Assembly: GCA_026122225.1 (NCBI GenBank) | Contig: JANEZZ010001958.1 | Coordinates: 372,001 to 436,000 of the forward strand | Source of the DNA: Heloderma charlesbogerti | Lineage: Eukaryota > Chordata > Lepidosauria > Squamata > Helodermatidae | DNA length: 64,000 nt | Reading direction: 5' to 3' | Part shown: piece after piece, positions 238 to 52,050 of the stretch | Layout: each line of letters opens with the position of its first letter | Position numbering within the stretch: the first letter of the stretch is position 1 | Translations under genes and position numbers: made by a program | The notes under the pieces: model-generated | The model's database searches: none | What the model was told of the DNA's origin: nothing | What the model saw: the letters and a program-made list of their open reading frames with translations, nothing else

Positions 238-1213
238 TAGGGATGGCGGAGAATTTCTCCCCGAAACTTCGGGGGGCCGAGCACCAACGCGTTCGGCCCC
301 CCGAACAAGTTTCGGTGAGAAATCCTCCGCACCCCCCCCACCCCCCGCACCCCCCCCGGGACGGGACTTACCTTCCCTGAATGTCCCTCCCGGCGGCGGG
401 TCCGGCTGGCGGTTCGTCCGGTGTTCGAGCGGGGCGGGAGCGGCAGCCGGTCTTTCGACCGGCTGCCGCCCCCGCCATTGCAATGAAAGAAAAAAAAAAA
501 AAAGTCCCCTGATAGGCTACGTGACGATTCACGTAGCCTATCACGGCTAGATTTGCCAAGTCAGCTGTGATAGGCTACGTGAATTGTCACATAGCCTATC
601 CCGGGTGACTTAAAAAAAAAAAAAAAAAGTGTGTACGGATAATGGCGGCCCCCATAGGGAGCCGCCATTCCCGTTCCTTATTTGGTGGCTGTCGTCTACG
701 TAAATGTTTACGTAGACTACAGCGAAAATAAGGGCAACGCTATTTGCGTTGCCCTTATTTTCGCCATAGTCTACGTAAACATTTACGTAGACGACAGCCA
801 CTAAATAAGGAACGCGAATGGTGGCTCCCTATGGGGGCCGCCATTCGCGTACGCGCTTTTTTTTTTTTTAAAGTCACCTGTGATAGGCTACGTGACGATT
901 CACGTAGCCTATCATGGCTGACTTTGCAGATCTAGCCGTGATAGGCTACGTGAATCGTCACGTAGCCTATCAGGGGGCTTTTTTTTGTTTTTTGTTTACT
1001 TTCGCGTTCGCGGCCGGGCGAGGCGACGCGCCTCCTCCCTGGCCTGAATTTCGGCCGGGCGAGGCGGGAAGCCTCCTCCCCGGCCTGAATTTCGGCCAGG
1101 CGAGGCGGGAAGCCTCCTCCCCCCGGCCTGAACTTCGTGGGGGGAGCAGCGAAGCGCTCCCCCCCACCGCGAATGGCCTTCGACGACAGGTAAGTGACTT
1201 TCATCCACCCCTA
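238..1213 (-). mobile_element. Family P hAT-like element P1 (complete, 8-bp TSD)
   Basis: The element is flanked by a perfect 8-bp duplication GTTGAGGT at 230-237 and 1214-1221. Termini are TAGGGATGG and CCACCCCTA. The R end is on the left. In order come F, the S motif inverted at about 367-374 (ACTTACC), hairpin E around 441-475, paired A hairpins (508-600), C, B, D (about 735-765), B, C, two more A hairpins (878-976), a GC-rich repeat block, then S (AGGTAAGT at about 1189) and the L end. No transposase frame is present; the open frames through it are translations of hairpins and GC-rich repeats. Eight-bp duplication plus TAGGG termini point to the hAT superfamily. It is nearly identical to the copy at 52502-53307, which suggests recent amplification. 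Confidence 0.92.
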
Positions 1214-2915: not shown

Positions 2916-3882
2916 TAGGGGTGCATGAAAGTCACTTACCTGGTCTCGCAGTTTGCTTTGCGGTGGGGAGGAGGCGCTTCGCTGCTCCCCCTGAAGTTCA
3001 GGCCAGGAGGGAGGCTTCCCTCCTCGCCCGGCTGAAATTCAGGCCGGGGGGGAGGCTTCCCGCCTCGCCCGGCCGAAATTCAGGCAGGGGAGAAGCGCCC
3101 CGTCTCTCCGGCCGCGAACTTCAAAAGAAACAAAAAACAAAAAAACCCGCCCCTGTGATAGGCTACGTAACGATTAACATAGCCTATCACGGCTAGATCT
3201 GCAAAGTCAGCCGTGATAGGCTATGTTAATCGTCACGTAGCCTATCACGGGTGACTTTGAAAAAAAAAAAAAGCGCGTACGCAAATGGCGGCCCCCATAG
3301 GGAGCCGCCATTCGCATTCCTTATTTGGTCCCTGTAGTCTACGTAAAGATTTATGTAGACTACGGCGAAAATAAGGGCAACGCTACTTGCGTTGTCCTTA
3401 TTTTCGCCGTAGTCTACATAAATCTTTACGTAGACTACAGGGACCAAATAAGGAATGCGAATGGCGGCTCCCTATGGGGGCCGCCATTAGCCGTACGCAC
3501 TTTTTTTTTTTTTTTAAAGTCACCCGTGATAGGCTACGTTACGATTAACGTAGCCTAGGATGGCTGACTTTGCAAATCTAGCCGTGATAGGCTACGTTAA
3601 TCGTTACGTAGCCTATCACAGGGGCGTTTTTTTTTTTTTTTACTTTGCTTGTAATGGCGGCGGTGGCAGATGGTCGAAAGACCGGCTGCCGCCCCTGCCC
3701 CTGACGAAGACCTGCCGAACTGCCGCTGGGACCCGCCGCTGGGAGGGACATTCGTGAAAGATAAGTCCCATCCCGGGGGGGGTGGGGGGGTGGAGAAGCT
3801 CTCCCCGAACAACCTTCGGAGGACTGAATGCGTTGGCGCTCGGCCCCCCGAAGTTTCGGGGAGAAATTCTCTCCCATCCCTA
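2916..3882 (+). mobile_element. Family P hAT-like element P2 (complete)
   Basis: Left terminus is TAGGGGTGCATG with inverted S (ACTTACC) 20 nt in; right terminus is CCCATCCCTA. The 8-bp duplication is GATTTATC at 2908-2915 against GATTTCTC at 3883-3890 (7 of 8). Contents in order: L, GC-rich block, two A hairpins (about 3155-3255), C, B, D (about 3372-3412), B, C, two A hairpins (3525-3622), E (3668-3690), S (weak, near 3757), F, R. In this copy A has TTAATCG-type loops. The B outer arms read CCCTGTAGTC and GACTACAGGG, which pair across D. Confidence 0.9.
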
Positions 3883-5066: not shown

Positions 5067-5870
5067 TAGGGATGTACGAAAGTCACTTATCTTGAACAAA
5101 ATTTGATTGGTGGTGGGGGGGAGGCGCTCCATCCCTCCCCCTGAAATTCTGGCCGGGGGGGGAGGCGCTCCGTCCCTCCCCCCCCCGAAATTCTGGCCGG
5201 GGGGGAGGCGCTCCATCCCTCCACCCCCGAATCCTGGCTGGCCGGGCTGCAAATGGTGGCGACCGTAGCTGCCACCGTTTGCGTCCCTGCAGTCAGCCAT
5301 GATAGGCTACGTACATGTTTACGTAGCCTATCACGGCTGAGTAAAAAAAAAACAAAAACCGCACATACGCAAATGGCGGCACCCATGGGCACCGCCATTT
5401 GTGTTCCTTATTTTGGCATGTCTAGTCTACGTAAACATTTACGTAAATGTTTACGTAGACTAGACGTGCCAAAATAAGGAACGCAAATGGCAGCGCCCAT
5501 GGGCGCCGCCATTTGCGTACGCACAGTTTTTTGTGTGTTTTTTTACTCAGCCGTGATAGGCTATGTAAACATTTACGTAGCCTATCACGGTATTTTTTAA
5601 AAATCTAGCCGTGATAGGCTACGTAAATCTTTACATAGCCTATCACTTTTTTTGTTGTTGTTGGTTTTTTTACTGGAAATGGCGGTGGCAGCCGCCAGTC
5701 GGAAGACCGGCCGCTGCCGCTGGAGCCACCGCCGCCAGGAGGATTCACCCAAGGTAAGTCCCGTCCCAGGGGGGCGGGGGGGCAGACCGTTTTGCCACCA
5801 ATTTCGGGGGGCCGAATGCGCTGGCATTTGGCCTCCCCGAGATTCGTGGAGAAATTCTCTGACATCCCTA
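5067..5870 (+). mobile_element. Family P hAT-like element P3 (complete, 8-bp TSD)
   Basis: Perfect duplication GAAATGAG lies at 5059-5066 and 5871-5878. The L end has a decayed S motif (ACTTATC). Three tandem GGGGGAGGCGCTCC blocks follow, then A (5298-5337), C with a CCCATGGGC centre, and a B-type core at 5420-5465 whose outer arms GGCATGTCTAG and CTAGACGTGCC pair. Then come C, two A hairpins, E, S (AAGGTAAGTCCC near 5753), F and R. It lacks D and one B, giving 804 bp. Confidence 0.92.
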
Positions 5871-7983: not shown

Positions 7984-8796
7984 TAGGGATGTCAGAGAAT
8001 TTCTCCATGAATCTCCGGGAGGCCAAATGCCAATGCATTCGGCCCCCCGAAATTGGTGGAGAAATTCTCCGACACCCCCCATCCCCCCCAGGATGGGACT
8101 TACCTCGTGCAAATGTCCCTCGCGGCGGTGGGTCCCGGCAGTGGTTTGGCGGCGGTTTGGCGGCGGCCGGTCTTCCAACCGGCTGCCACCACCGCCATTT
8201 CTAAGTAAAGTAAAAAAAAAAAAAAAGTGATAAGCTACATAAAGATTTATGTAGCCTATCATGGCTAGATTTTCAAAGTCAGCCATGATAGGCTACGTAA
8301 ATCTTTACGTAGCCTATCACGGCTGACTTTGACAAAAAAAAAAAGAGTTTACGCAAATGGCAAAGAGCAGGGATGCAAATGCCACTACGCCATTTGCGCC
8401 CCTGCTGTTTCCATGATAGGCTACATAAGTATTTACGTAGCCTATCACAGTAAAGGCAGCCACACAAACGGTGGCCACTATGCCATTTGCATAGCTGCCT
8501 TGCAGGAGCACAAACAGCGTAGTGGCCACCATTTGCATCCCTGCTCTTTGCTGTGATAGGCTACGTAAATACTTACATAGCCTATCACAGCAGCCTGGCA
8601 GAATGTAAATGGCAGCTGCTACAATGGCCACCATTGTACAATGGAACTCCAGCTGTGGATGGCCTTGGCCGGCAGCTCCACAGAGCCTCTGTGGAGTGGA
8701 CCCGGCCAGGGAGGATTCCAGGGGGAGGGACAGAGAGCCTCCCCCCCACTGTGGATGCCCCTGCACGGAGCCAGGTAGGGGATTCATACATCCCTA
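7984..8796 (-). mobile_element. Family P hAT-like element P4, no TSD
   Basis: Begins R-type TAGGGATGTCAGAGAATTTC and ends L-type CATACATCCCTA. F, S (ACTTACCTCG near 8098) and E (GGTCTTCCAACC) are present, then four A-type hairpins (about 8226-8590) alternating with C-like AAATGG blocks. B and D are absent. Flanks GTCGCCAC and ACAAAATT differ. The paralogous locus at 19.8-20.0 kb has about 160 bp of other sequence in this position, so a deletion accompanied or followed insertion. Confidence 0.8.
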
Positions 8797-9010
8797 ACAA
8801 AATTGAACCTGGAAACACAAATTAAATGCGAGCACATGTCCAGCAATTTGCAAACATCTGGGGCGGACAAGTGCTTGTGCTTGTGATAGTGTCCAAGGCT
8901 TCAAACATGGCATGTTATGTGAGCAAAAAGAACGTTCTCATACATCTGAATAGTGCTGGGCTAGAAACCATACAGGAATGTCTTATGTTCCTCCAATAAG
9001 GATCAGATCA
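8797..9010. repeat. Segment paralogous to 20005-20225
   Basis: Shares long near-identical words with 20005-20225, such as TGTCCAGCAATTTGCAAACA, GGGCGGACAAGTGCTTGTGC and GAATGTCTTATGTTCCTCC. Together with the tail at 7790-7969 it forms one duplicated unit, split here by P4. There is no coding frame. Confidence 0.75.
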
Positions 9011-9011
9011 A

Positions 9012-9260
9012 CTGAGATTTAAATAGAAATGTAGTGGCCTTTAGGCTAGTTGGCTCTGTCTACACACTGATTGAGGCTTAGTCTCTTAAAAAGGCCTGCC
9101 CTGTTTTAGCAGACTCATGCTGTAACATGCTAGTTTCCTCATGGCCCAAGTCCTCAGAGTCTGGGGATGTGACCTCCTCTGGATGTAGGAAGCCAGCTAC
9201 TGGGGGCTTTCTGGAGAACTGGGTCTTGGGGAGGTGGAAGCCTCATGATGCCTTTCCATG
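9012..9260. repeat. Old dispersed repeat, copy 3
   Basis: Matches 6085-6211 and 6653-6740 at moderate identity. It includes a 30-base word at 9121-9150 that recurs with one mismatch at 2533-2562. Confidence 0.5.
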
Positions 9261-10354: not shown

Positions 10355-11257
10355 TAGGGATGTCAGAGAATTTCGCCATGAATCTCGGGGAGGCCGAATG
10401 CCAGCGCATTCGGCCCCCTGAAATCGGTGGCGAAACGGTCTGCCCCCCCCACCCCCCCGGGACGGGACTTACCTTGGGCGAATCTCCCTGGCGGCGGCGG
10501 CTCCAGCGGCGGTTCGGCAGCGGTTCAGCGGCGGCGGCTGCGGCTGCCGGTCTTCCGACCGGCTGCCGCCACTGCCATTTCCAAGTTTTAAAAAACAAAA
10601 TAACGTGATAGGCTACGTAAAGATTTACGCAGCCTATCACGGCTAGATTTTTAAAAAATACCGTGATAGGCTACGTAAATGTTTACATAGCCTATCACAG
10701 CTGAGTAAAAAAACCCAAAAAACCGCGCATACACAAATGGAGGTGCCCATGGGCGCCGCCATTTCCGTTCCTTATTTTGGCATGTCTAGTCTACGTAAAC
10801 ATTTACGTAGACTACAGCGAAAATAAGGGGAACACAAATAGCATAGACATAAATGTTTACGTAGACTAGACATGCCAAAATAAGGAATGCAAATGGCAGC
10901 GCCCATGGGCTCTGCCATTTGCATACGCGCGGGGGGGGTTGTTAACTCAGCCGTGATAGGCTACATAAACATTTACGTAGCCTATCATGGCTGACTGCAG
11001 GGACGCAAATGGCGGCTGCTACGGCCACCGCCATTTACAGACTCGGCTGGACAGGATTCGCGGCGGGAGGGATGGGGCGCCTCCCCCCCGGCCAGAATTT
11101 CACGGGGGAGGGACGGGGCGCCTCCCCCTGGCCAAAATTTCAGGGGGGAGGGACAGGACGCCTCCCCCCCAGCCAGAATTTCGGGGGGAGGGACGGAGCA
11201 CCTCCCCCCCCCACGAATCAAATTTTGTAAAACGTAAGTGACTTTCGTACATCCCTA
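10355..11257 (-). mobile_element. Family P hAT-like element P5
   Basis: R end TAGGGATGTCAGAGAATTTC on the left, L end TTTCGTACATCCCTA on the right. Contains F, S (ACTTACCTTGGG), E (GGTCTTCCGACC), two A hairpins (10602-10702), C with CCCATGGGC centre, B, truncated D, B, C, A, then four GC-rich GGGGAGGGACGG blocks and S (ACGTAAGTGAC). Flanks AATATGTC and AATGTTGC agree at 5 of 8, so the duplication is decayed. Confidence 0.85.
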
Positions 11258-12097: not shown

Positions 12098-12430
12098 TAA
12101 GAACATAAGAAGAGCCATGCAGGATCAGAGCAAGGGTTTATCTAGTCCATCATTCTATCCCCCTGTAGCCAATCAGCTGCTAGTGGGAAATCCAGAAATA
12201 GGACCTGCTGTGGAGTACTTTAGTCCTGCTGCTAGTAATTCCCCCTTTGCCCCATTGCCTTCCCACAAAATTGCCCCCCAATATGCCACCCATAAATACT
12301 GTTTAATTTGTTTGAACTCTGATGATTCCAAAGCTATCTTATTTGTATATTTATACAAACTTTTCTACCCCACTTTTCAATGTAGATTCTCAGCAGCTTC
12401 CCAAATCATACTAAAAATTTGAATGTAAAA
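12098..12430 (+). repeat. Amniote interspersed repeat of the CATAAGAACATAAGAAGAGCC type
   Basis: The opening CATAAGAACATAAGAAGAGC followed by GCAGGATCAGAGCAAGG and ATCTAGTCCA is a familiar retroposon segment in reptile genomes. The remaining 200 bases are diverged. I cannot assign it to a named family without a library. P6 starts directly after it. Confidence 0.55.
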
Positions 12431-12432
12431 CA

Positions 12433-13460
12433 TAGGGATGTATGAAAGGTACTTACCTTTCGCGGATTATGTTTATGGTTTGGGGGGAGGCGTTCCATCC
12501 CTCCCCCCGGAATCCTCGCTGAGGGGGGAGGCGCTCAGTTCCTTCCCCCCCTGGAATCCTGGCCGGCCGGCTGTGCTCTGCAGCGATTCTGCAGAGCCGC
12601 CGGCCAGCTCCGCCAGCAGCCAGACATCCGCTGTGCTCCACTATGCTCTGCCGTGCTCCGCCAGCAGCCGGACATCAGCGACATCCGGCTGCTGGCTAGC
12701 AGGGATGCAAATGCTGGCGGCCGTAGCCGCTGCCGTTTGTGTCCCTGCAGTCAGCCGTGATAGGCTATGTAAATGTTTATGTAACCTATCACGGCTGACT
12801 TAAAAAACAACAACAACAACGCGCATATGCAAATGGCGGCGGCCACGGCTGCCACCATTTGTGTTCCTTATTTTGGCATGTCTTAGTCTACGTAAACATT
12901 TACGTAGACCAAAATGGCGAAAACAAGGGGAACGCAAATAGCGTAGATGCTATGCTATTTGCGTTCCCCTTGTTTTCACCGTCTTAGTCTACATAAATGT
13001 TTACATAGACTAAGACGTGCCAAAATAAGGAACGCAAATGGCGGCGGCCATGGCAGCCACCATTTGCGTACGCGCATTTTTGTTTTTTTAAAAAAAGTCA
13101 GCCATGATAGGCTACGTAAACATTTACGTAGCCTATCATGTTTTTTTAAAAAAACCTAGCCGTGATAGGCTACGTAAATCTTTACGTAGCTTATCACTTT
13201 TTTTGTTTTTGTTTTTGTTTTAACCTGGAAATGGCGGCAGCGGCAGCTGGTCGGAAGACCGGCCGCTGCAGCCGCCGCCGCCGCCGCACCACTGCCAGAG
13301 CCTTCACCGGAGCCGCCACTGCCAGGAAGATCTGCCCAAGGTAAGTCTTGTCCCAGGGTGGCGGGGTGGTGGCGGGCCATTCCGCCACCGATTTCGGGGG
13401 GCCGAATGTGCTGGCATTCGGCCTCCCTGAGATCCGTGGCGGAATTTTCGTACATCCCTA
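12433..13460 (+). mobile_element. Family P hAT-like element P6 (complete reference copy, 8-bp TSD)
   Basis: Perfect duplication GTAAAACA at 12425-12432 and 13461-13468; length 1028 bp. Order: L with S inverted (ACTTACC), GC-rich block including an internal CTCCGCCAGCAGCCGGACAT repeat, A (12751-12800), C (about 12820-12877), B (12883-12912), D (12920-12980), B, C (to 13075), A (13098-13141), A (13157-13200), E (GGTCGGAAGACC near 13249), S (AAGGTAAGTC near 13338), F, R. The outer flanks of the B hairpins, GGCATGTCTTAGTC and GACTAAGACGTGCC, pair across D. Local hairpins therefore sit inside a larger palindrome of about 250 bp. No coding capacity. Confidence 0.93.
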
Positions 13461-13555
13461 GTAAAACATAATCAAGCAAATGGTTTCATGCAAAAGGGTT
13501 AACGAACACACAAGGATGCCAATATCATGAGTAGATGTAATGTTAATCTGTGGCA

Positions 13556-15028: not shown

Positions 15029-16290
15029 TAGGGATGGAGGAGAAATTCATTCCGGTCCTATTTTAATGAAGACTTGCCTAAATTTGCACTTTTGAACCAC
15101 TATGTGAATCGGAACTCAGTTATTCTGTGAACATTTTGTAACAGATAGGGGTGCACGAAAGTCACTTACCTGGTCTCGCAGCTTTTCGCGGTGGGGGGGA
15201 GGCGCTTCGCTGCTCCCCCCGCGAAGTTCAGGCCAGGGGGGGAGGATTCCCGCCTCACCCAGCCGAAATTCAGGCCGGGGAGGAGGCTTCCCGCCTCGCC
15301 CGGCCACGAACGCGAAAGTTAAAAAAAAAAACACGCCCCAGTGATAGGCTACGTGACGATTAACGTAGCCTATCACGGCTAGATCTGCAAAGTCAGCCGT
15401 GATAGGCTATGTAAATCGTCACGTAGCCTATCACGGGTGACTTAAAAAAAAAAAAAAAAAGCGTGTATGGATAATGGCGGCCCCCATAGGGAGCCGCCAT
15501 TCGCGTTCCTTATTTGGTCGCTGTAGTCTATGTAAATCTTTACGTAGACTACAGCGAAAATAAGGGCAACGCAAATAGCGTTGCCCTTATTTTCGCCGTA
15601 GTCTACGTAATCTTTACGTAGACTACAGCAACCAAATAAGGAACGGGAATGGCGGCTCCCTATGGGGGCAGTCATTATCCGTAGGCGCTTTTTTTTCTTT
15701 TTTTTTAAGTCACCCGTGATAGACTACGTGATGATTTACGTAGCCTATCACGGCTGACTTTGCAGATCTAGCCGTGATAGGCTACGTTAATTGTCACGTA
15801 GCCTATCACGGGGGCGTTTTTTTTTTTCTTTTATTGGAATGGCGGCGGCGGCAGACGGTCGAAAGACCGGCTGCTGCTCCCGCCCTGGACGAAGACCCGA
15901 CGAACCGCCGGCCAGACCCGCCGCCGGGAGGGACCTTCGGCAAAGGTAAGTCCCATCCCGGGGGGGGCGGGGGGCGGAGAATTTCTCCCCGAAACCTGTT
16001 TGGGGGGCCGAACATATTGGCGCTCGGCTCCCCGAAGTGTCGGGGAGACATTCTCCTCCATCCCTAGTAACAGAGTGCTCCAATACTACTACTACTGCTA
16101 CTACTAATAATAATGACACAAAATATAACTAGGGAAAATGACATTCATTATATTAAGACAATTTCTTGCAAAAATGTGTATATTAGGCAAAACGCATAAA
16201 AATGCATGGATTTAGACAATTGTGTACAAAGATGCTTATGAATTTCCATGCACGCTTTTTTTTTAAAAAAGTGAATTATTAGTCTGACCT
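15029..16290. mobile_element. hAT-like relic, family F8, split by P7
   Basis: Starts TAGGGATGGAGGAG at 15029 and resumes after P7 at 16067. Words such as TATTAGGCAAAACGCATAAA at about 16180 recur at 41940-41960. The right terminus is not clear. A short (TAC)n/(TAA)n tract lies at 16086-16112. Confidence 0.45.
15146..16066 (+). mobile_element. Family P hAT-like element P7 (complete, 8-bp TSD)
   Basis: Perfect duplication GTAACAGA at 15138-15145 and 16067-16074. L TAGGGGTGCACG, S inverted, two GC-rich blocks, two A hairpins, C, B, D (AACGCAAATAGCGTT near 15570), B, C, two A hairpins, E with a GAAA loop (15858-15871), S (AAAGGTAAGTCCC near 15941), F, R. Close to P2 and P9. Confidence 0.93.
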
Positions 16291-16301: not shown

Positions 16302-17782
16302 TAGGGGTGTACGAAACCCCACTTACCTGGCTCCACCAGGTTCTGCGGGGGGGGGGGGAGGCACTCCATCCCTCCCTCCGGAATACTGGCTGGCCAGCTG
16401 CACTCTGCGGGGATTCCGTGGAGCTGCCGGCTGGCTCCACCAGCAGCCAGACATCCGGCCGCTGGCTAGCAGGGATGCAAATGGCGGCTGTTGTAGCTGC
16501 CGCTGTTTGCGTCCCTGTATTCAGCCGTGATAGGCTACATAAAGACTTACGCAGCCTATCACGTCTGGGTTAAAAAAAACAACGCATACGCAAATGGCGG
16601 CGGCTACGGCTGCTGCCATTTGTGTTCCTTATTTTTGGTTGTCTTAGTCTACGTAAATATTTACGTAGGCTAAGATGGCAAAAATAAGGGGGAACGCAAA
16701 TAGCGTAGTGGGCGCTATTTGCGTTCCCCTTTATTTTCACCATCGTAGTCTACGTAAATATTTACGTAGACTAAAGGTAAAGATAAAGGTGTCCCCAACC
16801 AGTCGTGTCCAACTCTAGGGTGTGGTGCTCATCTCCATTTCTAAGCTGAAGAGCGAGCGCTGTCCGAAGACGCTTCCGTGGTCATGTGGCCGGCATGACT
16901 GAGCACCGAGGTGCACGGAACGCTGTTACCTTTCCCGCCGAAGTGGTACCTATTTATCTACTTGCAATTTCTTGCTTTCAAACTGCTAGGTTGGCAGAAG
17001 CTGGGACTGAAGACAGGAGCTCACTCCATCACGCAGCACTCGGGTCTCGAACTGCTGTCCTGCTGACCTTCCGGTCTGCAGTTCAGTGTCTTAATCACTA
17101 AGCCACCATGGCCCCCAAAGGAAAGTTTCCTCCTGTGCAAGCACCGGGTCATTACTGACCCCTAGAGGGACGCCGCTTGCACTAGCGTTTTTGTGGCAGA
17201 CTATAGCGGGGTGGTTTGCTATTGCCTTCCCCAGTCGTGACTACCTTTTCCCCCAGCAAGCTGGGTCCTCATTTTACCAACCTCGGAAGGATGGAAGGCT
17301 GAATCGATCTGAGCCAGCTACTGGGACCCAGTTTCCACTGGGATCGAACTCAGGTCGTGGGGAGAGCTTTGGTTGCTATACAGCCGCCTACCACTCTGCG
17401 CCACACGAGGCTCTTAAGACTACGACGGCCAAAAATAAGAAACACAAACGGCGGCAGCTGTACCGCCGCCATTTGTGTATGCATTTGTTTTTTTAAACCC
17501 AGACATGATAGGCTATGTAAGTCTTTACGTAGCCTACCACAAATCGGCGGGGGGAAAGACTGCAAATGGCAGCGGCGGCAGCCGTTCAGAAGACCAGCCG
17601 CCGCCAAAGCCGCCGCTGGAGCCACCGCCATCCAGAACATCCGCCCCAGGTAAGTCTCATCGCAAGGGGGATCCGTGGGGGGGCAGGAGGGTGGCAGGGC
17701 ATTCTGCCACGGAGTTCGTGGGGCTGAATGCACTGGCATTCGGCCTCACCGAGATCCGTGGCGGAATTTTCTGACATCCCTA
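16302..17782 (+). mobile_element. Family P hAT-like element P8 with inserted SINE (8-bp TSD)
   Basis: Perfect duplication CAGGGAAC at 16294-16301 and 17783-17790. Without the SINE at 16774-17416 it is about 835 bp. Contains L, S inverted, GC-rich block, A (16525-16562), C, B, D, B cut by the SINE, C, A, E (TCAGAAGACC near 17585), S (CCAGGTAAGTCTC near 17646), F, R. Confidence 0.92.
16774..17416 (-). mobile_element. Tandem pair of tRNA-derived squamate SINEs
   Basis: Unit one (16774-17113) has the common squamate text GGTCATGTGGCCGGCATGAC and CTGCTAGGTTGGCAGAAGCTG. It ends in an inverted tRNA-like head (CACTAAGCCACCATGG). Unit two (17116-17416) has CCTCGGAAGGATGGAAGGCT, GGGATCGAACTCAGG and CTGCGCCACA, again an inverted tRNA-like head. 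Both lie on the minus strand. AGACTA at 16768-16773 and 17417-17422 is the probable target duplication inside a B hairpin of P8. Exact SINE family names would need a repeat library. Confidence 0.75.
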
Positions 17783-18433: not shown

Positions 18434-19286
18434 TAGGGGTGGACGAAAGTCCCTTACCTGTCGTCGAAGGACGTTCACGGTGGGGGGGAGGTGCTTTGCT
18501 GCTCCCCCCGCGAAGTTCAGGCCGGGGGGGGAAGGCTTCCCGCCTCGCCCCGGCCGTAATTCAGGCCGGGGAGGAGGCTTCCCGCCTTGCCCGGCCGCGA
18601 ACGCAAAAGTTAAAAAAAAAAAAAACGCCCCCTGATAGGCTACATGACGATTAACGTAGCCTATCACGGCTAGATCTGCAAAGTCAGCCGTGATAGGCTA
18701 TGTCAATCGTCACGTAGCCTATCACGGGTGACTTTAAAAAAAAAAAAGCGCGTACGCTAATGGCGGCCCCTATAGGGAGCCGACATTCGCGTTCCTTATT
18801 TAGTCGCTGTAGTCTACATAAACATTTACGTAGACTACAGTGACCAAATAAGGAACGGGAATGGCAGCTCCCTATGGGGGCCGCCATTATCCGTACGCGC
18901 TTTTTTTTTTTTTTAAGTCACCCGTGATAGGCTACGTGACGATTGACGTAGCCTATCACGGCTGACTTTGCAAATCTAGCCGTGATAGGCTACGTTAATC
19001 ATCACGTAGCCTATCAGGGGGCATTTTGTTTTTTTTTCTTTTATTGCAATGGCGGCGGCGGCAGCCGGTCGAAAGACCGGCTGCTGCTCCCGCCCCGCTC
19101 GAACACCTGCTGAACTGCCGGCCGGACCCGCCGCCGGGAGGGACATTCGACGAAGGTAAGTCCTGTCCTGGGGTGTGTGTGGGGGGTGGGGGGTTGGAGG
19201 ATTTCTCCCCGAAACTTGTTCGGGGGGCCGAACACGTTGGCGCTCGGCCCCCCGAAGTTTCAGGGAGAAATTCTCCGCCATCCCTA
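18434..19286 (+). mobile_element. Family P hAT-like element P9 (complete)
   Basis: Duplication GCTCCCAT at 18426-18433 against GCTCACAT at 19287-19294 (7 of 8). L TAGGGGTGGACG, S inverted with CCTTACC, two GC-rich blocks, two A hairpins, C, a single B core (18808-18840), C, two A hairpins, E with GAAA loop (about 19065-19080), S (AAGGTAAGTCCTG near 19155), F, R. D is missing, so one B replaces the usual B-D-B. Confidence 0.92.
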
Positions 19287-23980: not shown

Positions 23981-25292
23981 TGTCAGGGTTGTATCTGAGA
24001 CCACAGAGTCCCAAAGCAGCTCTGATTCTGAGGAGGAGATACAATCCATGGGGGAGGAACTCTCTCAGACTTCAGAGGTGCAGCTGGAGGGGGAGCCCCC
24101 CCCACCTCTCACATCCCTGGGAGTGACAGCGAACCAGGCGTGGAAAGGGAGGGACAACCTGAACTTGTAGACACGTGAGGCACAAGCGAGAGATCACAGG
24201 GCCGAGCTTCAGCACTCAGGCCAATTGGCTCGATGTCAACAGCTGCACCCAGAAGTGTCATGGGAGAGGGGGAGATTGTCCCCTCCCACCCCTTAAGTTC
24301 AGAGAATTGCCACCCTTTTCACAAACGGAGATCAACCGACGTACTAACTCTTTGTACCCCTAGATGGCTGTTCCTTTGTAGTTTCTCTGAGTCTCAAGCA
24401 ATTAGCATCTGTATGCCTCATTAGGATAAATTAGGGATGTACGAAAGTCACTTACCTTTTGGACAGGGTGATTCACGGTGCGGAGGAGGAGCTCCGTACC
24501 TCCCCCCGAAATCCTAATCCAGCCGGCTCCGCTCCGTGGAGATTCCACAGAGCCACCGGCCGGGGCCACCCGCAGCTGGACATCCGGCCACTGGGCAGCC
24601 TTCCAGGAAAAAAAAAACCGCGTACGCAAATGGCGGCGGCTACAGTGGCCGCCATGTGTGTTCCCTTTTTTTTGCCGTTTTAGCCTACGTAAATATTTAC
24701 ATAGGCAATTACGGTGGGAAAAAAAAAGAACGCAAATAGCGCCCACTATGCTATTTGCGTTCTCCTTTTTTTCACCGTAATAGCTTATGTAAATATTTAC
24801 GTAGGCTAAAACAGTGAAAAAAAGGGAACGCAAATGGCAGCCGCCATAGCCACCACCATTTACGTACATGGTTTTTTGTTTGGGGGGCTTTTTTCCTTGC
24901 CATGATAGGCTATGTAAGTATTTCTGTAGCCTATCACGGCAAAGGCAGCTACGCAAATGGCGTGGTGGCCGCCATTTTAGTCCGCAGCAGCCGGCCGAGA
25001 GACCAGCTGCCGCCGCCGCCAGAGCCACCGCCGGAGCTGCTGCCACCGGAACATCCACCCCAGGTAAGCTTCGTCCCGGGGGGGATTCTGCGGGGGGGGC
25101 AGGGGTGGGAGGCCGTTCTGCCACAGGTTTCGGGGGGCTGAATGCCAGTGCATTCGGCCTCACTGAAATCCGTGGCGGAATTCTCCGCCATCCCTAGGAT
25201 AAATGGAATTAAAGCCTTGGAAAGCAGCCCTTTTGTCTGAGTGTTGATTTTGGCTATTGGAGTATTCAGGAGGCAACAGGGGAACCTTGACA
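23981..25292 (+). mobile_element. Solo LTR of about 539 bp, interrupted by P11
   Basis: Starts TGTCAGGGTT and ends AACCTTGACA, so the ends are inverted (TGTCA...TGACA). A 5-bp duplication GGATG flanks it (23976-23980 and 25293-25297). Removing P11 and its extra 8 bases leaves 539 bp, matching the 541 bp of the LTR at 25779-26319. Text near the 3' end (TTAAAGCCTTGGAA, TTTTGTCTGAGTGTTGATTT) also occurs at 62130-62175. A solo LTR is usual after recombination between two LTRs; no internal retroviral or gypsy coding sequence is present, so the superfamily is undecided. Confidence 0.82.
24432..25196 (+). mobile_element. Family P hAT-like element P11 (complete, 8-bp TSD)
   Basis: Perfect duplication GGATAAAT at 24424-24431 and 25197-25204. 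L, S inverted, short GC-rich block, C, B-type hairpin with GCCTACG...GTAGGC arms, D, B, C, A (24898-24945), E with a GAGA loop (25000-25015), S (CCAGGTAAGCTTC near 25060), F, R. It is the innermost level of the nest. Confidence 0.93.
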
Positions 25293-29327: not shown

Positions 29328-31244
29328 TAGGGATGTCAGAGAATTCCGCCACAGATCTCAGTGAGGCTGAATGCCAGTGCACTCGGCCCCCCGAACTCCG
29401 TGGCGGAATGGCCTGCCCCCCCGCGGATCCCCCCCCAGGATGAGACTTACCTGGGGCGGATCTTCCAGGCGGCGGCAGCAGCACCGGCGGCAGTCCCCCC
29501 CCCTCGCATGAACTTCGGGGGGAGAAGCGAAGTGCCTCCCCCCCACTGCAAAGCAAGCTTCGAGGACAGGTAAGGGACTTTTGTCCATCCCTAGGCGGAG
29601 GCGGCTGCAGCGGCTGGTCTTCCAATCAGCTGCCGCCGCCGCCATTTGCAGTCTTGTAAAAAAAATAAAATAAAACGACATGGTAGGCTACGTAAAGATT
29701 TACGTAGCCTATCATGGCTGGGTTTAAAAAAAAAAAAAGGATGTGATAGGCTATGAAGATATACGTAGCATATCATGGCTGTAGGGATGGACGAAAGTCC
29801 CTTACCTGTTCTCGAAGCTTGGTTCGCGAGGTTCAGGCGAGGGGGGGGGCACCCCGCCTCACCCAGCCAAAATTCAGGCCAGGGGGGGAGGCGCCCCATC
29901 CCTCGCCGGTGAAATTCAGGCCGGGTAGAAGCGCCCCGTCTACCCGGCCGTGAAAAAAAAAGTAAACACACACACACACACCCATGATAGGCTATGTAAC
30001 GATTTACATAGCCGATCAAGGCTAGATTTCCAAAGTCAGCCGTGATAGGCTATGTAAATCGTCACGTAGCCTATCACGGGTGACTTTGAAAAAAAAAAAG
30101 CGCATACACAAATAGCGGCAGCCCATAGGTGCCGCCATTTGCATTCCTTATTTTGACATGTCTATTCTACATAAAGATTTACGTAGACTATGGCGAAAAT
30201 AAGAGCAACGCAAATGGTGGCGCCCATGGGCCACTGCCATTTGCGTACGCGCTTAGTTTCCCCCCAAAGTCACCCGTGATAGGCTACGTGACGATTTATG
30301 TAGCCTATCACGGCTGACTTTGGAAATCTAGCCATAATAGGCTACTTAATTGTTACATAGCCTATCACGGGGGTGGGTGTTTTTTTTTTACTTTACTTTT
30401 TTTATTTGCAATGGCGGCAGCAGCAGCCGGTCAGGAGACCGGCCGCTGCCCCTGCCCCTGACGAAACGCAGCCGAACCGCCGCCGGGACCCGCCATTTGG
30501 CCACGGTAAGTCCCATCCTGGGGGGGGGCGGGGGGCCAGTGGAGAATTTCCCCACCAATTTTGGGGGGCCGAATGCGTTGACTCGGCCCCCCAAAGTTTT
30601 GGGGAGAAATTCTCGGCCATCCCTACATGACTGGGTTTAAAAAAAAAAACGCGTACGCAAATGGCGGTGGCTACAGCTGCCGCCATTTGCGTTCCTTATT
30701 TTTGGCCGTCTTAGTCTATGTAAATATTTACATAGACTATGACGGCAAAAATAAAGGGGAACGCAAATAGCGTAGTGGGCCCTATTTGCATCCCTTTTTG
30801 ATTCACCGTTTTAGCCTACGTAAAGATTTACGTAGGCTAAAACGGTGAATCAAAAAGGGACGCAAATAGCGCCCGCTACGCTATTTGCGTTCCCCTTTAT
30901 TTTCGCCGTCATAGTCTATGTAAATATTTACGTAGATTAAGATGACCAAAAATAAGGAACGCAAATGGCGGCAGCTTAGCCACTGCCATTTGCGTACGCG
31001 TTTTTTTTTTTCTTTCTCCAGAGCCCTCCGCGGCCGGAAATCCATCTGCGGACAGCTCTGGCCTGGCTGGGTCTGGCCGGCTCCTCTGCGGAGCTGCCGC
31101 GGAGCACAGCCGGCCCTTGAGGATTCTGGGGGGGGGAACGGATTGCCTCCCCCCCATCGAGGTTTCCAGGGGGAGGGACGGTACACCTCCCCCACCACCA
31201 TCAACATAATCTGCAGAAAGGTAAGTGACATTCATTCATCCCTA
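29328..31244 (-). mobile_element. Family P hAT-like element P13, host of P14 (8-bp TSD)
   Basis: Perfect duplication GCTGGCTC at 29320-29327 and 31245-31252. R end left, L end right (S GGTAAGTGACATTC at 31220). At 29497-29593 it carries a partial foreign P L-end block that ends CATCCCTA inside the GC-rich region. E, two A hairpins, then P14. After 30634 come C, B, D, central hairpin G (30806-30852, arms CCGTTTTAGCCTACG, perfect), D, B, C and a GC-rich block. This is the clearest copy with a G centre. Confidence 0.9.
29782..30625 (+). mobile_element. Family P hAT-like element P14 nested in P13
   Basis: Duplication CATGGCTG at 29774-29781 against CATGACTG at 30626-30633 (7 of 8). The target lies just after an A hairpin of P13. 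L TAGGGATGGACG, GC-rich block, two A hairpins, C, short B region, C, two A hairpins, E (GGTCAGGAGACC), S (ACGGTAAGTCCC near 30505), F, R. Confidence 0.9.
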
Positions 31245-31302: not shown

Positions 31303-32100
31303 TAGGGATGTCAGAGAATTCCGCCATGGATCTTGGTGAGGCAGAATTCCAGTGCATTCGGCCCCCCCAAATCTGTGGCAGAATGGCCTGCCCCCCCTGC
31401 CCCCCGCGGATCCTCCCCGGGACGAGACTTACCTGGAGCAGATCTTACGGGTGGTGGCGGCTTCGGCTCCGCCATTTCCAGGCTTGTGAAGAAAAAAAAA
31501 GACATGATAGGCTATGTAAATCTCTACGTAGCCTGTCATGGTTGGGGGTGGGTATAAAAAAAAAAAGTGTACGCAAATGGCGGCAGCTATGGCTGCCGCC
31601 ATTTGCATTCCTTCTTTTTACCGTCTTAATCTACATAAATATTTATGTAGATTATGACGGCGAAAATCAAGGGGAATGCAAATAGCATAGTGGGCTAAAA
31701 GATTTACGTAGGCTAATACGGTGAATGAAAAACGCCCGCTACACTATTTGCGTTCCCCTTGATTTTCGCCATCATCGTCTATGTAAATATTTACATAGAT
31801 TAAGATGGTAAAAAGAAGGAATGCAAATGGCGGCTGCCATAGCCGCCATTTGTGTACGAGGTTGGTTTTTTTTGTTTTTTTGTTTCGTTTTTTTTCCCAA
31901 AGCCCTCCGCAGCCGGAAATCCAGGCCTGGCCGGCTGTTCCGCGGAGCTGCCGCAGAGCACAGCCAGCCGTTCGAGGATTCTGGGGGGAGTAACGGAGCA
32001 ACTCCCACCCCGGCCAGGATTCTGGGGGGAGGGACGGAACGCCTCTGCCCCCCACCATCAACATAATCCATGAAAGGTAAGTCACTTTCGTACATCCCTA
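31303..32100 (-). mobile_element. Family P hAT-like element P15
   Basis: R end TAGGGATGTCAGAGAATTCC, L end TTTCGTACATCCCTA with S (AAGGTAAGTCAC near 32076). E is reduced; A (31503-31541), C, B, D, a degraded G, D, B, C and GC-rich blocks follow. Flanks are ATCATTTT and AGATTCATTTT, so the duplication appears shifted or altered by small indels. Confidence 0.85.
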
Positions 32101-34423: not shown

Positions 34424-35545
34424 ATTGTTGTTGTTGTTCAGTCGTTAAGTCATGTCCGACTCTGCGTAGGGATGTACGAAAGTGACTTACCTTTCGCGGA
34501 TTATGTTGATGGAGGGGGGGGAGGTGTTCCGTCCCTCCCCCCGGAATCCTCGAATGGCCGGCTGTGCTCTGCGGCAGCTCCGTGGAGCAGCCGGCCAGGC
34601 CCGGCCAGGCCAGAGCCGTTCGCAGCCAGATTTCCGGCTGCGGAGGGCTCTGGGTAAAAACAAAACAAAACACCGGGTACGCAAATGGCGGTGGCTACGG
34701 CCGCCGCCATTTGCGTTCCTTCTTTTTGGCCATCTTAATCTATGTAAATATTTATGTAGGCTATGACAGCGAAAATAAAGGGGAACGCAAATACCGTAGC
34801 AGGCGCTATTTGCATCCCCTTTTCATTCACCGTTTTAGCCTACGTAAATCTTTATGTAGGCTAAAACGGCGAATCAAAAGGGGACGCAAATAGCACCCGC
34901 TACGCTATTTGCGTTCCCCTTTATTTTCGCCGTTATAGTCTACATAAATATTTACATAGATTAAGAGGGTAAAAAGAAGGAACGCAAATGGCGGCGGCCG
35001 TAGCCGCCGCCATTTGCGTATGCACTTTTTTTTAAACCCACCCCCAACCATGATACGCTACGTGTTTTTTTTTTTTCTTCACAAGCCTGGAAATGGCAGC
35101 AGCAGCAGCTGGTCAGAAGACTGGCCACCACCACCGCCAAAGTCACCGCTAGAGCCACCGCCGGAGCCGCTGCCGCCCGGAGGATCCGCCCCAGGTAAAT
35201 CTCATCCTGGGGGGGATCCACGGGGTGGCGGGGGGGCAGGCCGTTCCGCCACAGATTTCGGGGGGCTGAATGCACTGGCATTCGGCCTCACTGAGATCTG
35301 TGGCGGAATTCTCTGACATCCCTAACTCTTTGTGACCCCATGGACCATAGCACGCCAGGCCTTCCTGTCCTCTGCTCTCTCCCAGAGTGTGCTCAAGTTC
35401 ATATTCATTGCATCGGTGATGCTATCTAGCCATCTCATCCTCTACCATCCCCTTCTCCTTTTGCCTTCAATCTTACCCAGCATCAGGGTCTTTTCCAGTG
35501 AGTTTTCTCTTCGCATTAGGTAGCCAAAATATTTGAGCTTCAGTT
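34424..35545 (-). mobile_element. BovB (RTE) 3' fragment, split by P16
   Basis: TTGTTGTTGTTGTTCAGTCG at 34427 and GTGACCCCATGGACCATAGC at 35332 are the inverted BovB 3' end, as in the longer copy at 47103-48825. P16 splits the sequence ACTCTTCG of that motif. Only the last 250 or so bases of BovB are present. Confidence 0.85.
34467..35324 (+). mobile_element. Family P hAT-like element P16 inserted in BovB
   Basis: Duplication ACTCTGCG at 34459-34466 against ACTCTTTG at 35325-35332. The BovB copy at 47.1 kb has ACTCTTCG at the empty site, so each duplicate differs from it by one base. Order: L, S inverted, GC-rich, C, B, D, hairpin G (34831-34870), D, B, C, remnant A, E (GGTCAGAAGACT), S (CCAGGTAAATCTC), F, R. 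Confidence 0.93.
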
Positions 35546-36119: not shown

Positions 36120-36833
36120 TAGGGATGTACGAAAGTCACCTTTTCGACGAGGCGATTTGCGTTGGGGGGGAGGCACTCCGCACCTCCCCCCGAAATCCTT
36201 CTCTGGCCGGCTCTGCTCTGCAGAGATTCCATGGAGCCACTGGCCGGGGCCTCCCACAGCTGGAAATCCGGCCGCTGGGCAGCCTTCCTTCCGGAAGAAA
36301 AAACAACAACCCGTAAACACAAATGGTGGCAGCTATGGCGGCCGCCATTTGCGTTCCCTTTTTTTCGCAGTTTTAGCCTACGTAAATATTTACATAAGCT
36401 ATTATGGTGAAAAAAAAGACGAACGCAAATAGCGCCCACTACGCTATTTGCATTGCCCTTTTTTTCGTTGTAATAGCTTATGTAAATATTTACATAGGCT
36501 AAAACTGTGAAAAAAGGGGAATGCAAATGGCGGCCGCCATAGCTGCCACCATTTGCATACGCGGAGTTTTTTTTTTTTCTTGGCTTGCCATGGTAGGTTA
36601 CATAAATACTTACATAGCCTATCATGGCAAAGGGCAGATGGCAATGGCGGCCGCGGCAGCCGGTCGAAAGACCAGCCGCCGCCGTCCGGAACATCCGCCC
36701 CAGGTAAGCCTCGTCCTGAGGGGAATCCACAGGGGGGCGGGGGGGCAGGCTGTTCCACCATCGATTTCGGGGGGGCGAATGCCAGTGCATTCAGCCTCAC
36801 TGAAATCTGTGGCGGAATTCTCCGCCATCCCTA
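36120..36833 (+). mobile_element. Family P hAT-like element P17 (complete, 8-bp TSD)
   Basis: Perfect duplication AAGAGGAC at 36112-36119 and 36834-36841. L lacks the usual ACTTACC (reads GTCACCTTTTC). C, B with GCCTACG arms, D, B, C, A (36588-36628), E with GAAA loop (36663-36676), S (CCAGGTAAGCCTC near 36699), F, R. It sits about 30 bases upstream of recognisable L2 copy A. 35936-36119 is an unassigned old repeat with GGACAG-type words. Confidence 0.93.
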
Positions 36834-44503: not shown

Positions 44504-45309
44504 TAGGGATGTCAGAGAATTCCTCCATGGATCTCGGTGAGGCCGAATGCCAGTGCATTCGGCCCCCCGAAATCTGTGGCAGAAAGGCCTGCCACCCCCC
44601 TGCCACCGCCCACGGATCCCCCCCAAGACGAGACTTACCTGGGGCTAGGGATGGACGAAAGTCCCTTACCTGGTCCCGCAGCTTGCTTCGTGGTGGTGGG
44701 GAGGCACTCCGTTCCTCCCCCCAAAATTTTTGGCAGGGGGGAGGCGCCCCATCCCTCCCCGCCGAAATTCTGGCCAGGGGGGATGCACCCTGTTCCTCTG
44801 GCTGCAAATCCTCCTTGCCGGCCGGGACGCAAATGGCGGCGGCCATAGCCGCCGCCGTTTGCATCCCTGCAGTCAGCCATGATAGGCTACGTAAATCCTT
44901 ACGTAGCCTATCACGGCTGACTTTGGGAAGAAAAAAAAGCGCCATCCCTACCTGGGGCAGATCTTCCGGGCGGTGGCGGCTCTGGTGGCGGTGGCGGCAG
45001 CTGCGGCGGCTGGTCTTCCGACTGGCTGCCACCGCCGCCATTTGTCTTGTAAAAAAAAGAAATGTTGTGATAGGCTACGTAAAGATTTATGTAGCCTATC
45101 ATGGCTGGGTTAAAAAAAAAACGCATATGCAAATGGCGGCAGCTACGGCCGCCACCATTTGCGTTCCTTATTTTTGGCCATCTTAGTCTATGTAAATATT
45201 TACATAGACTATGATAGCAAAAATAAAGGGGAATGCAAATAGCGTAGCGGGCACTATTTGCATCCCTTTTTGATTCGCCGTTTTAGCCTACATAAAGATT
45301 TACATATCA
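44504..45309 (-). mobile_element. Family P half element P19 (R half), host of P20
   Basis: R end TAGGGATGTCAGAGAATTCC, F, S (ACTTACC) with P20 inserted next to it, E (GGTCTTCCGACT), A (45067-45105), C, B, D, then half of hairpin G. It stops at TAAAGATTTACAT, which is the G symmetry point. The L half is absent. Left flank GGAAATGG has no partner on the right. Confidence 0.85.
44646..44950 (+). mobile_element. Miniature family P element P20 nested in P19 (8-bp TSD)
   Basis: Perfect duplication CCTGGGGC at 44638-44645 and 44951-44958. Only 305 bp: L TAGGGATGGACG, S inverted (CCTTACC), GC-rich blocks, one C-like hairpin and one A hairpin (44880-44915), then directly GCGCCATCCCTA. The E, S and F modules of the R side are deleted, yet it transposed. 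This indicates that the terminal octamer region is enough on that side. Confidence 0.93.
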
Positions 45310-46151: not shown

Positions 46152-46630
46152 TAGGGGTGTACAAAACCCTACTTACCTTGCTCCTCTGGGGTCCACAGGG
46201 GGGGGAGGCAATCCCGTCCTCCCCCCGGAATCCTCCCCAGCCAGCTCTAATCCGTGGTGTGTCTGCGGAGCCGCCAGCTGGGCCGATCTGCAGCTTGGCT
46301 GCTGCGGACGCAAATGGCGTCCTGTGTAGGGGACGCCATTTGCATCGCTGCTGTAGCCATGATAGGTTATGTAAATATTTACATAGCCTCTCACAGCTAA
46401 AGCAGCGATGCAAATGGCATCCCCTACACATGATGCCATTCGCGGCCGCACACCGGAGCAGCGCCCAGCAGTGGCTGGTCCAGGCCCGCCAGAGGCAGGT
46501 AGGATCTGGTCCATGGGGACTTCGTGGGGTGGCGGAGGGGATTGCTCCATTCCGCCATGGACTCTGGGGGACCAGATTCTAAAGAATCCGGCCTCGCTGG
46601 AGTCCGTGGCGGAATTCTCCGCCATCCCTA
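46152..46630 (+). mobile_element. Family P short element P21 (8-bp TSD)
   Basis: Perfect duplication GTTCAGTG at 46144-46151 and 46631-46638. Length 479 bp: L TAGGGGTGTACA, S inverted (ACTTACC), GC-rich block, a C-type hairpin with AAATGGCGTCC arms, one A hairpin (46357-46402), a second C, AGGTAGGATC in place of S, F, R. B, D and E are absent. It resembles the nested copy at 61167-61910. Confidence 0.92.
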
Positions 46631-50310: not shown

Positions 50311-52050
50311 TAGGGGTGCACGAAAGTCACTTACCTGGTCTCGCAGCTTGCTTCGCGGTGGGGGGGAGGCGCTTCGCTGCTCCCCCCGAAGTTCTGGCTG
50401 TGGGGGAGGCTTCCCTCCACGCCCGGCCGAAATTCAGGCTGGGGAGAAGCACCCCGTCTCCCCAGCCGCGAACTTCAAAAAAAAAAAAAAAAACGCCCCA
50501 TGATAGGCTATGTAACGATTAACGTAGCCTATCACGGCTAGATCTGCAAAGTCAGCCGTGATAGGCTACGTTAATCGTCATGTAGCCTATCACGGGTGAC
50601 TTTGGAAAAAAAAAAAGTGCGTACGCAAATGGCGGCCCCCATAGGGAGCCGCCATTCGCGTTCCTTATTTGGTCCCTGTAGTCTACGTAAAGATTTTTTT
50701 GCGTTGTCCTTATTTTCGCCGTAGTCTACGTAAATCTTTATGTAGACTACAGCGACCAAATAAGGAACGCGAATAGCAGCTCCCTATGGGGGCCGCCATT
50801 AGCCGTATGCGCTTTTTTTTTTTTTTAAGTCACCCATGATAGGCTACGTGACGATTAACGTAGCCTATCATGGCTGACTTTGCAAATCTAGCTGTGATAG
50901 GCTATGTTAATCGTTACGTAGCCTATCACAGGGGTGGGGTTTTTTTTTACTTTGCTTGTAATGGCGGCGGCGGCAGCCAGTCAAAAGACCAGCTGCCGCC
51001 CCCGCCCCTGACGAAGACCTGCTGAACCACCGCCAGGACCGGGCGCCGGGAGGGACATTCGTGAAAGGTAAGTCCCATCCCAGGGGGGGGGCGGGGGGCG
51101 GGGGGGCAGAGAAGTTCTCCCCGAACAACCTTCGGAGGACCGAATGCGTTGGCGCTCGGCTAGGAGTGCACGAAAGCCACTTACCTGGTCTCGCAGCTTT
51201 TTTCACGGTGGGGGGGAGGCGCTTCGCTGCTCCCCTCGAAGTTCAGGCCAGGGGGGGAGGCTTCCCGCCTCACCCGGCCACAAAATAAAAAGTTTAAAAA
51301 AACAAACAAACCGCCCCGTGATAGGCTACGTGATGATTAACGTAGCCTATCATGGCTAGATCTGCAAATCTAGCCGTGATAGGCTACGTTAATCGTCACG
51401 TAGCCTATCACGGGTGACTTAAAAAAAAAAAAAGCAAGTACGCAAATGGCGGCCCCCATAGGGAGCTGCCATTCGCGTTCCTTATTTGGTCGCTGTAGTC
51501 TACGTAAATCTTTACGTAGACTACGGCGAAAATAAGGGCAACGCAAATAGCTTTGCCCTTATTTTCGCCGTAGTCTACGTAATCTTTACGTAGACTACAG
51601 CGACCAAATAAGGAACGTGAATGGCGGCTCCCTATGGGGGCCGCCATTAGCCGTACGTGCTTTTTTTTTTTTTTCTAAGTCACCCGTGATAGGCTACGTG
51701 ACGATTTACGTAGCCTATCATAGCTGACTTTGCAAATCTAGCCGTGATAGGCTACGTTAATCATCACGTAGCCTATCACGGGGGTGGTTTTTGTTTTTTT
51801 TACTTTTATTGGAATGGCGGCGGCGGCAGCTGGTCAAAAGACTGGCTGCCGCCTCTGCCCCTGTCGAAGACCTGACGAACTGCCGCCGGGACCTGCCGCC
51901 GGGAGGGACATTTGGGAAAGGTAAGTCCCGTCCCGGGGGGGGTGGGGGGTGGGGGGTATGGAGAATTTCTCCCCGAAACTACTTCGGGGGGCCGAACACG
52001 TTGGCACTCGGCCCCCCGAAGTTTCGGGGAGAAATTCTCCCCCATCCCTA
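50311..52050 (+). mobile_element. Family P composite P23 (two L halves, one R end)
   Basis: Unit a (50311-51160) starts TAGGGGTGCACG and runs through A, C, B, C, A, E (loop CAAA), S (AAAGGTAAGTCCC near 51065) and F, but lacks its last 45 or so bases. Unit b (51161-52050) starts TAGGAGTGCACG and is complete, ending CCCATCCCTA. Flanks are GAGAATGC (50303-50310) and GGAATGC (from 52051), one base short of a full duplication. Unit b was probably inserted in unit a, then homologous R ends recombined. Confidence 0.85.

Follow-up and report, generated by a model that had tools for sequence, protein, structure and literature searches.

Family P of the Heloderma charlesbogerti genome is best read as a large non-autonomous hAT family that would be moved by a BED-type transposase of the same genome, many of its hairpin cores being putative pairs of a transposase-binding motif multiplied by inverted duplication; judged from the sequence, we regard this reading as reasonably probable. 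The family was analysed in the window, i.e. the whole stretch of 64,000 nucleotides (contig JANEZZ010001958.1, positions 372,001 to 436,000). The copy under study (12433-13460, 1028 bp) has the ends TAGGGATG...CATCCCTA and is flanked by GTAAAACA/GTAAAACA, an 8/8 duplication. Pairing of its terminal inverted repeats extends over 15 nt, and the long palindrome is internal. Features of this copy and the other copies of the window are collected in Table 1.

Table 1 Copies of family P in the window and anatomy of the focal copy (positions in the window; x/8, matching positions of the target-site duplication)
Feature	Position	Strand	Duplication or remark
P copy	238..1213	-	8/8
P copy	2916..3882	+	7/8
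P copy	5067..5870	+	8/8
P copy	7984..8796	-	0/8, no duplication
P copy	10355..11257	-	5/8, no duplication
Focal copy: left target-site duplication GTAAAACA	12425..12432	.	
Focal copy: alpha terminal inverted repeat TAGGGATGTATGAAA	12433..12447	+	93% complementary to 13446-13460
Focal copy: ACTTACCT (minus strand: AGGTAAGT), outward 5' splice-site-like motif just inside alpha end	12451..12458	-	CTTACC in 21/26 seed alpha ends
Focal copy: G-rich hairpins of alpha end	12479..12563	+	two units GGGGGGAGG..CCTCCCCCC
Focal copy: hairpin GCCAGCAGCCGGACATC..GACATCCGGCTGCTGGC	12660..12696	+	copy positions 228-264
Focal copy: C-type hairpin	12699..12748	+	GCAAAT..GCCGCC family
Focal copy: A-type hairpin around CTATGTAAATGTTTATGTAA	12749..12800	+	
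Focal copy: large palindrome	12758..13138	+	381 bp; arms 12758-12946 / 12950-13138, 189 nt each, 85% complementary
Focal copy: C hairpin	12827..12864	+	left arm of large palindrome
Focal copy: B hairpin, left	12883..12912	+	
Focal copy: D hairpin	12911..12985	+	palindrome centre
Focal copy: B hairpin, right	12980..13017	+	
Focal copy: C hairpin, right	13032..13069	+	
Focal copy: A-type hairpin	13103..13140	+	
Focal copy: A-type hairpin	13162..13197	+	
Focal copy: GGCGGC..GGTCGGAAGACCGG..GCCGCC hairpin	13232..13277	+	
Focal copy: GGTAAGT, outward 5' splice-site-like motif near beta end	13340..13346	+	
Focal copy: beta-end hairpin	13379..13445	+	
Focal copy: beta terminal inverted repeat TTTCGTACATCCCTA	13446..13460	+	
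Focal copy: right target-site duplication GTAAAACA	13461..13468	.	
P copy	15146..16066	+	8/8
P copy	16302..17782	+	8/8; 1481 bp, longest
P copy	18434..19286	+	7/8
P copy	24432..25196	+	8/8
P copy, split by nested copy 29782-30625	29328..31244	-	8/8; further alpha end at 29593
Nested P copy inside 29328-31244	29782..30625	+	7/8
P copy	31303..32100	-	3/8, no duplication
P copy	34467..35324	+	6/8
P copy	36120..36833	+	8/8
Mini copy, 305 bp	44646..44950	+	8/8; bare CATCCCTA end, without beta hairpin; alpha half and two hairpins (C-like, A-type)
P copy, 479 bp, few hairpins	46152..46630	+	8/8
Two abutting P copies, head to tail (50311-51160 and 51161-52050)	50311..52050	+	no duplication found
P copy	52502..53307	-	8/8
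P copy, split by nested copy 55471-56419	55173..57033	-	7/8
Nested P copy inside 55173-57033	55471..56419	-	6/8
P copy, behind another alpha end at 60989	61167..61910	-	7/8

Two end types were distinguished, alpha (TAGGGRTGnACGAAAGTCACTTACC...) and beta (TAGGGATGkCrGAGAATTyC...), and a profile was built from 26 ends of each. Searching the window with these profiles (E up to 1e-2) detected 27 ends of alpha type and 28 of beta type, which fits the figure of about 30 copies in the original prediction. Twenty alpha/beta pairs were formed, with duplications matching at 8/8 in 10 cases, 7/8 in 5 and 6/8 in 2, and the other 3 pairs were without duplication (5, 3 and 0 of 8); 718 unrelated left x right combinations, taken as control, yielded 8/8 never, 7/8 once and 6/8 six times. 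The 12 perfectly duplicated copies counted originally were slightly too many, 10 being 8/8, or 11 with the mini copy 44646-44950. This mini copy hints at a very small requirement at the beta end or at a deletion after insertion, and the extra length of copy 16302-17782 is probably inserted sequence. The copies form several lineages, with identities of 52-97% among aligned bases, and three copies (29782, 55471 and 61167) lie within or behind others. In the abutting pair, the second copy begins exactly where the beta remnant of the first one stops, and the segment 27862-28318 has a beta-type end at each side with no duplication (2/8).

The assumption that all TAGGGATG pairs make up one family was rejected, as the sequence that follows the octamer is unrelated in 6212-6652, in 22307-22882 and in several more. 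The two named elements (TAGGGATGTGCAA...) carry 8/8 duplications, lie outside family P and possibly belong to other hAT families. Ten of the 20 window open reading frames of at least 150 aa, chosen for overlap with complete or partial P copies, gave no Pfam match at E 0.01. Long open frames at 37239-38762, 47479-48762 and 57158-57799 resemble what we take to be pieces of CR1-type and BovB-type LINEs.

Abundance was estimated on a 70-kb sample composed of twenty pieces of 3.5 kb, taken at round positions from seven contigs known from earlier matches. Sequence similar to 22 window copies covered 6.2% of it, with 860-1207 bp of P-like sequence in four pieces, 32 bp in one and none in fifteen; the window reached 37.5% by the same measure, a value inflated by the queries coming from the window. 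Counted by ends, the sample held 16 (7 alpha and 9 beta, E up to 1e-3) in 70 kb vs the 55 (E up to 1e-2) in the 64 kb of the window. P is several times denser in the window than in the sample, and the high local density noted originally was supported. Rough extrapolation gives a copy number of the order of 10^5, and with 6.2% of the sample the family may form a sizeable part of the genome.

Autonomous partners were sought by a whole-genome search of the 2.30-Gb assembly for the hAT dimerisation domain, in which 150 of 871 candidates were scored; open frames of at least 870 aa were found in 17 of the 150 scored matches. Four loci were retrieved and then extended. Homology between C235 and C1330 starts with TAGGGATGTCAGAGAAATTCTC, a left end of beta type, and the right end of C235 is an alpha end reading TTGGGG, one change from TAGGGG. 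A site TAGGGATGTACGCTG, about 330 bp behind the hAT domain, had been considered as the autonomous right end and was rejected, copies being still alike beyond it. The best-read copy, A235 (at C235), comprises 9387 bp with beta on the left and alpha on the right, flanked by CACAACAC/CACAACAC (8/8). A second, diverged lineage is represented by A356 (at C356; 10,377 bp, AGTAGGGC at either flank), whose beta end is identical to three P copies at 23/23 bases; its right end had no match to P.

Seven autonomous copies were read at both ends, with duplications of 8/8 at C235, C356, C3039, C3046 and C2152, of 7/8 at C2955 and none at C1330 (4/8); among those of A235 type, 4/6 were perfect. For C3039, C3046, C2955 and C2152 the two ends only were read, the transposase match between them being known from the domain search. 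Seven of eight further right ends were alpha, and C1779 gave none. C3046 lies within a P-type beta end. At L060:69-92, an autonomous copy has inserted into a P-type element at its beta end, with the 8/8 duplication ATTCCGCC.

The 879-codon frame of A235 matched PF05699 Dimer_Tnp_hAT with 60.6 bits (cut-off 21.4) and PF02892 zf-BED with 23.2 bits (cut-off 20.6); in the A356 frame, zf-BED stayed below the cut-off (18.1 vs 20.6). The A235 frame aligns with the Hermes transposase through tsDtWt, tDnasN and aseRlFs, and the two aspartates and the glutamate in these regions are presumably the catalytic triad. Its five closest relatives are squamate proteins, the best one 42% identical (Sceloporus), followed by proteins of frogs and others. 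In three squamate homologues (P0001, P0003, P0004) PF02023, which we take to be SCAN, is joined to the BED/hAT transposase, and in two of the three also PF01352, presumably KRAB; these are possible host-transposase fusions. The autonomous element further contains a tandem-repeat region (L039:463-1266, L040:273-1241) and a further upstream open frame of 235 aa (L039:1283-1987), for which no Pfam match was obtained at E 0.01.

Because both of its ends are common to elements with open hAT-transposase frames, family P belongs to the hAT superfamily as far as sequence can show, and the hAT membership proposed originally was upheld when autonomous copies that encode a hAT transposase and have ends of these types were found in the same genome. 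Duplications of 8 bp were present at 17/20 pairs (at least 6/8), at 5/7 autonomous copies (8/8) and at an empty site described below. The terminal inverted repeats of hAT elements begin with (T/C)A(A/G)NG, and TAGGG stands at both ends of P. Their duplications can be biased to nTnnnnAn, a preference neither universal nor defining; the 17 P duplications of at least 6/8 do not show it, position 2 being T in 4/17 and position 7 A in 6/17 by hand count. Superfamilies with 8-bp duplications also include P, Merlin and Zisupton, and the duplications by themselves do not decide between them and hAT. A non-hAT origin was rejected on account of the alpha and beta ends on elements with open hAT-transposase frames, and would require all of these to be chimeras; its probability is negligible.

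The palindromes of family P can be traced to the autonomous alpha end. The last ~385 bp of A235 represent one half of the hairpin array, and P1-type copies carry this half together with its inverted duplicate: positions 3-426 of e15146 match A235 9385 to 9004, and positions 429-685 match A235 8999 to 9249. The same layout was observed in e238, e2916 and e51161, and e52502 has a shorter form. As the P1 copies match the A235 end twice, the second time inverted, the C-B-D-B-C palindrome is the alpha-end array of the autonomous element duplicated in inverted orientation, D being the turning point. In seven further autonomous alpha ends, the stretch from A235 8999 (up to 9052-9076) was matched twice, so part of the palindrome is already in the autonomous element. 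On its beta side, P resembles the autonomous elements in the outermost 22-29 bp only, and the sequence beyond them had no match in A235 or A356. At L041, an autonomous copy is split by a P1-like copy of 972 bp; L039 provides the empty site, with exactly 8 bp (2112-2119) duplicated. The element L032:872-1396 runs from beta to beta and is fully palindromic, its 12-bp flanks also being inverted copies of each other; it is either an inverted duplication or a fold-back assembly artefact, and L003/L004 (one contig), L033/L034, the C817 pair and the C2449 pair may resemble it.

Hairpins were counted in 22 copies, i.e. the 20 alpha/beta pairs and the abutting copies 50311 and 51161. They numbered 180, compared with 0.8 for the summed means of dinucleotide shuffles (5 shuffles of each copy), and seven control stretches of the window contained 1, 0, 0, 1, 0, 2 and 0. 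The description of elements built of hairpins with a large palindrome was confirmed by these counts and by the 85% complementarity of the 189-nt arms, and that of a branched-cruciform design holds for sequence capacity and co-varying arms only. The A and B hairpins are a single family, of which 61 distinct examples were collected by searching for a GTAAA..TTTAC centre with up to one mismatch. They share the core CTAYGT..ACRTAG, and their outer arms vary between lineages in a compensatory manner. Conservation at core positions 2-6 from the centre is given by construction, these being imposed by the search pattern; outside it, position 8 was conserved in 59/61 and position 9 in 60/61. An invariant core was weakened as a proposal, being partly imposed by the pattern and with P1 A-type units differing. 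Scanning viral contigs for the hairpin core gave 0 matches.

Covariation in the arms was compared with 300 shuffles. Position 11 (G-C 27, T-A 23, C-G 7) was paired in 57/61 hairpins vs a shuffle mean of 23.4 and a maximum of 38, position 17 in 54 vs 36.5 and position 20 in 41 vs 28.6. Pairing exceeded all 300 shuffles at positions 11, 15, 16, 17 and 20, and at positions 18, 19, 21 and 22 of the 61 A/B hairpins it did not rise above the shuffle maximum. For the beta ends, RNAalifold on 27/28 sequences (27862 left out) predicted 16 pairs, 7 of them with double change. Such compensatory changes, together with the hairpin excess, would fit selection on the hairpin structure itself, either as cruciform DNA serving as transposase or repair substrate or as hairpin RNA entering small-RNA pathways. 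However, arms that arose by inverted duplication yield the same signature without selection, pairing at positions 7-16 is inflated by the admission rule (at least 6/10 pairable among these positions, 17 and 20 being outside the filter), and no Rfam family attained its gathering score anywhere in the window; selection on structure is in our view unlikely.

A different feature of the hairpins is the motif CGTAA/TTACG. In the two left 500-bp and two right 1-kb ends of both autonomous lineages (A235, A356) it was counted 5 times on the left (1.0 kb in total) and 16 times on the right (2.0 kb), vs twice in 16.8 kb of interior. Over all autonomous ends, CGTAA ranked second after AAAAA among the 512 strand-collapsed 5-mers, and first (17 vs 2) when the hairpin-bearing right end of A235 was left out; the motif had been picked after viewing ends and hairpins, and the ranking of all 5-mers was done afterwards as a check. 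The excess at the left ends alone was weaker against the random-genome rate (5 matches, P about 9e-4). Among the 61 units of the form CTAYGT..ACRTAG in copies of the window, 37 contained CGTAA/TTACG, often as an inverted pair, and 24 did not, including P1 A-type units with CTACGTGACGATTCACGTAG; 56 held the shorter CGTA/TACG. The Hermes motif AAGT, counted 31 times over 3 kb of autonomous ends and 108 times over the 16.8 kb of interior, showed no clear concentration towards the ends and was thereby weakened as a candidate for a general subterminal motif.

By analogy with characterised hAT elements, we infer that the cores may serve as double sites for BED domains, multiplied in the array. According to PMC10368747, two subterminal repeats forming a quasi-palindrome are bound cooperatively by the BED domains of Hermes, Tol2 carries the perfect palindrome AAGTACTT directly after the terminal inverted repeat, and Tol2 and Ac require 150-200 bp of each end. 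In family P, a BED-type hAT transposase supplied in trans by elements of the same genome (e.g. A235, 9.4 kb) would move the copies, and many hairpin cores would be inverted pairs of the putative subterminal binding motif CGTAA/TTACG, recognised cooperatively by BED domains. The nested design would have grown by inverted duplication through template switching during gap repair, and short elements rich in binding sites and spreading well would be the outcome. The few-hairpin copies 46152 and 44646 are perfectly flanked, which suggests that few hairpins suffice for insertion and most are dispensable for it, unless the 305-bp copy was deleted later; if functional, the array would thus raise the frequency of mobilisation and not be essential. 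Against this docking reading, the outer arms are complementary well past the motif, which binding sites alone need not require.

The palindromes might instead be functionless by-products of aborted gap repair after hAT excision with template switching, the spread of the family being owed to good ends. This would agree with the P1 copies being inverted duplications of the autonomous right end, with the perfect duplications of few-hairpin copies, and with defective copies of P elements, which PMC4168063 traces to abortion, slippage and template switching in repair. It accounts less well for the A/B-type cores still shared by lineages just 52-77% identical and for the concentration of CGTAA at autonomous ends without P hairpins (A356); we consider it possible, if rather doubtful.

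Each copy could also be a mobile CpG-island promoter of bidirectional type, with transcripts that would exit through a 5' splice site close to either end and be spliced into neighbouring host genes. Outward GGTAAG-type sites, good 5' splice sites by sequence, were present near the alpha end in 18/22 copies and near the beta end in 19/22, and AGGTAAGT was found 15 times on one strand and 14 times on the other in the 22 copies (random genome 0.13 per kb). Within the window, CpG observed/expected was 0.91 inside P vs 0.24 outside, and CpG transitions were 2.8-4.0 times as frequent as other C/G transitions (three subgroups, 15/22 copies; no background control). The GGTAAG-type motif contains AAGT, the Hermes BED motif, and the lack of a clear concentration of AAGT at autonomous ends weakens the view of these sites as BED repeats. 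On the other hand, the CpG density may stem from the copies being young, and the site at the alpha end also falls within a palindrome close to the terminus, AAGTCACTT, resembling that of Tol2. Taken as an explanation of the design, the promoter is quite improbable. An extended version, in which P would be a 'super-substrate' docking array that titrates and out-competes the autonomous element and in addition a CpG-rich mobile bidirectional promoter with outward splice sites wired into host genes, likewise appears unlikely to us.

Why one non-autonomous family beats its parent is an open question, and here parent-type and parasite-type copies coexist in one genome, the P1 copies differing from the parent's end mainly by the inverted duplication of that end. 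Should the palindromes be arrays of binding sites, the winning feature would be visible in the sequence and testable across copies of differing hairpin number. Among the literature matches listed, from a search that lay outside Repbase and Dfam, no description of a palindromic-array design in a non-autonomous hAT element was recognised.

Tol2 and Hermes make 8-bp duplications. Both are similar to P in their hAT ends and in palindromic AAGT/ACTT-type repeats just inside the terminal inverted repeat (PMC10368747). Of the seed alpha ends of P, 9/26 read AAGTCACTT and 16/26, those 9 included, fit AAGTNVCTT; the 70 kb of random genome contained 3 exact occurrences of AAGTCACTT. P differs from Tol2 and Hermes in that its palindromic units repeat across the whole ~0.9-kb element and are nested in a 381-bp palindrome, and in being non-autonomous and of high copy number. 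The Ac terminal inverted repeat, (C/T)AGGGATGAAA, resembles TAGGGATGTACGAAA of P, and Ds ends carry splice sites, whereas the subterminal motif of Ac/Ds differs from that of P and a palindromic array is, to our knowledge, not a feature of Ds. For Ac, a need for at least 200 bp at each end and cooperative binding are stated in PMC10368747. Galileo and Foldback-like elements (P superfamily) share with P long inverted repeats extended by internal repeats and defective copies formed by aborted repair and template switching (PMC4168063). They belong to another superfamily, and the long inverted repeat of P is internal and not terminal, pairing of its terminal inverted repeats being 15 nt instead of making up most of the element as in Foldback. 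hAT MITEs such as Mar of Drosophila have 8-bp duplications. Mar is, like P, a non-autonomous hAT element with terminal inverted repeats (PMC3517528). Unlike Mar, P is hairpin-structured and has an autonomous partner identified.
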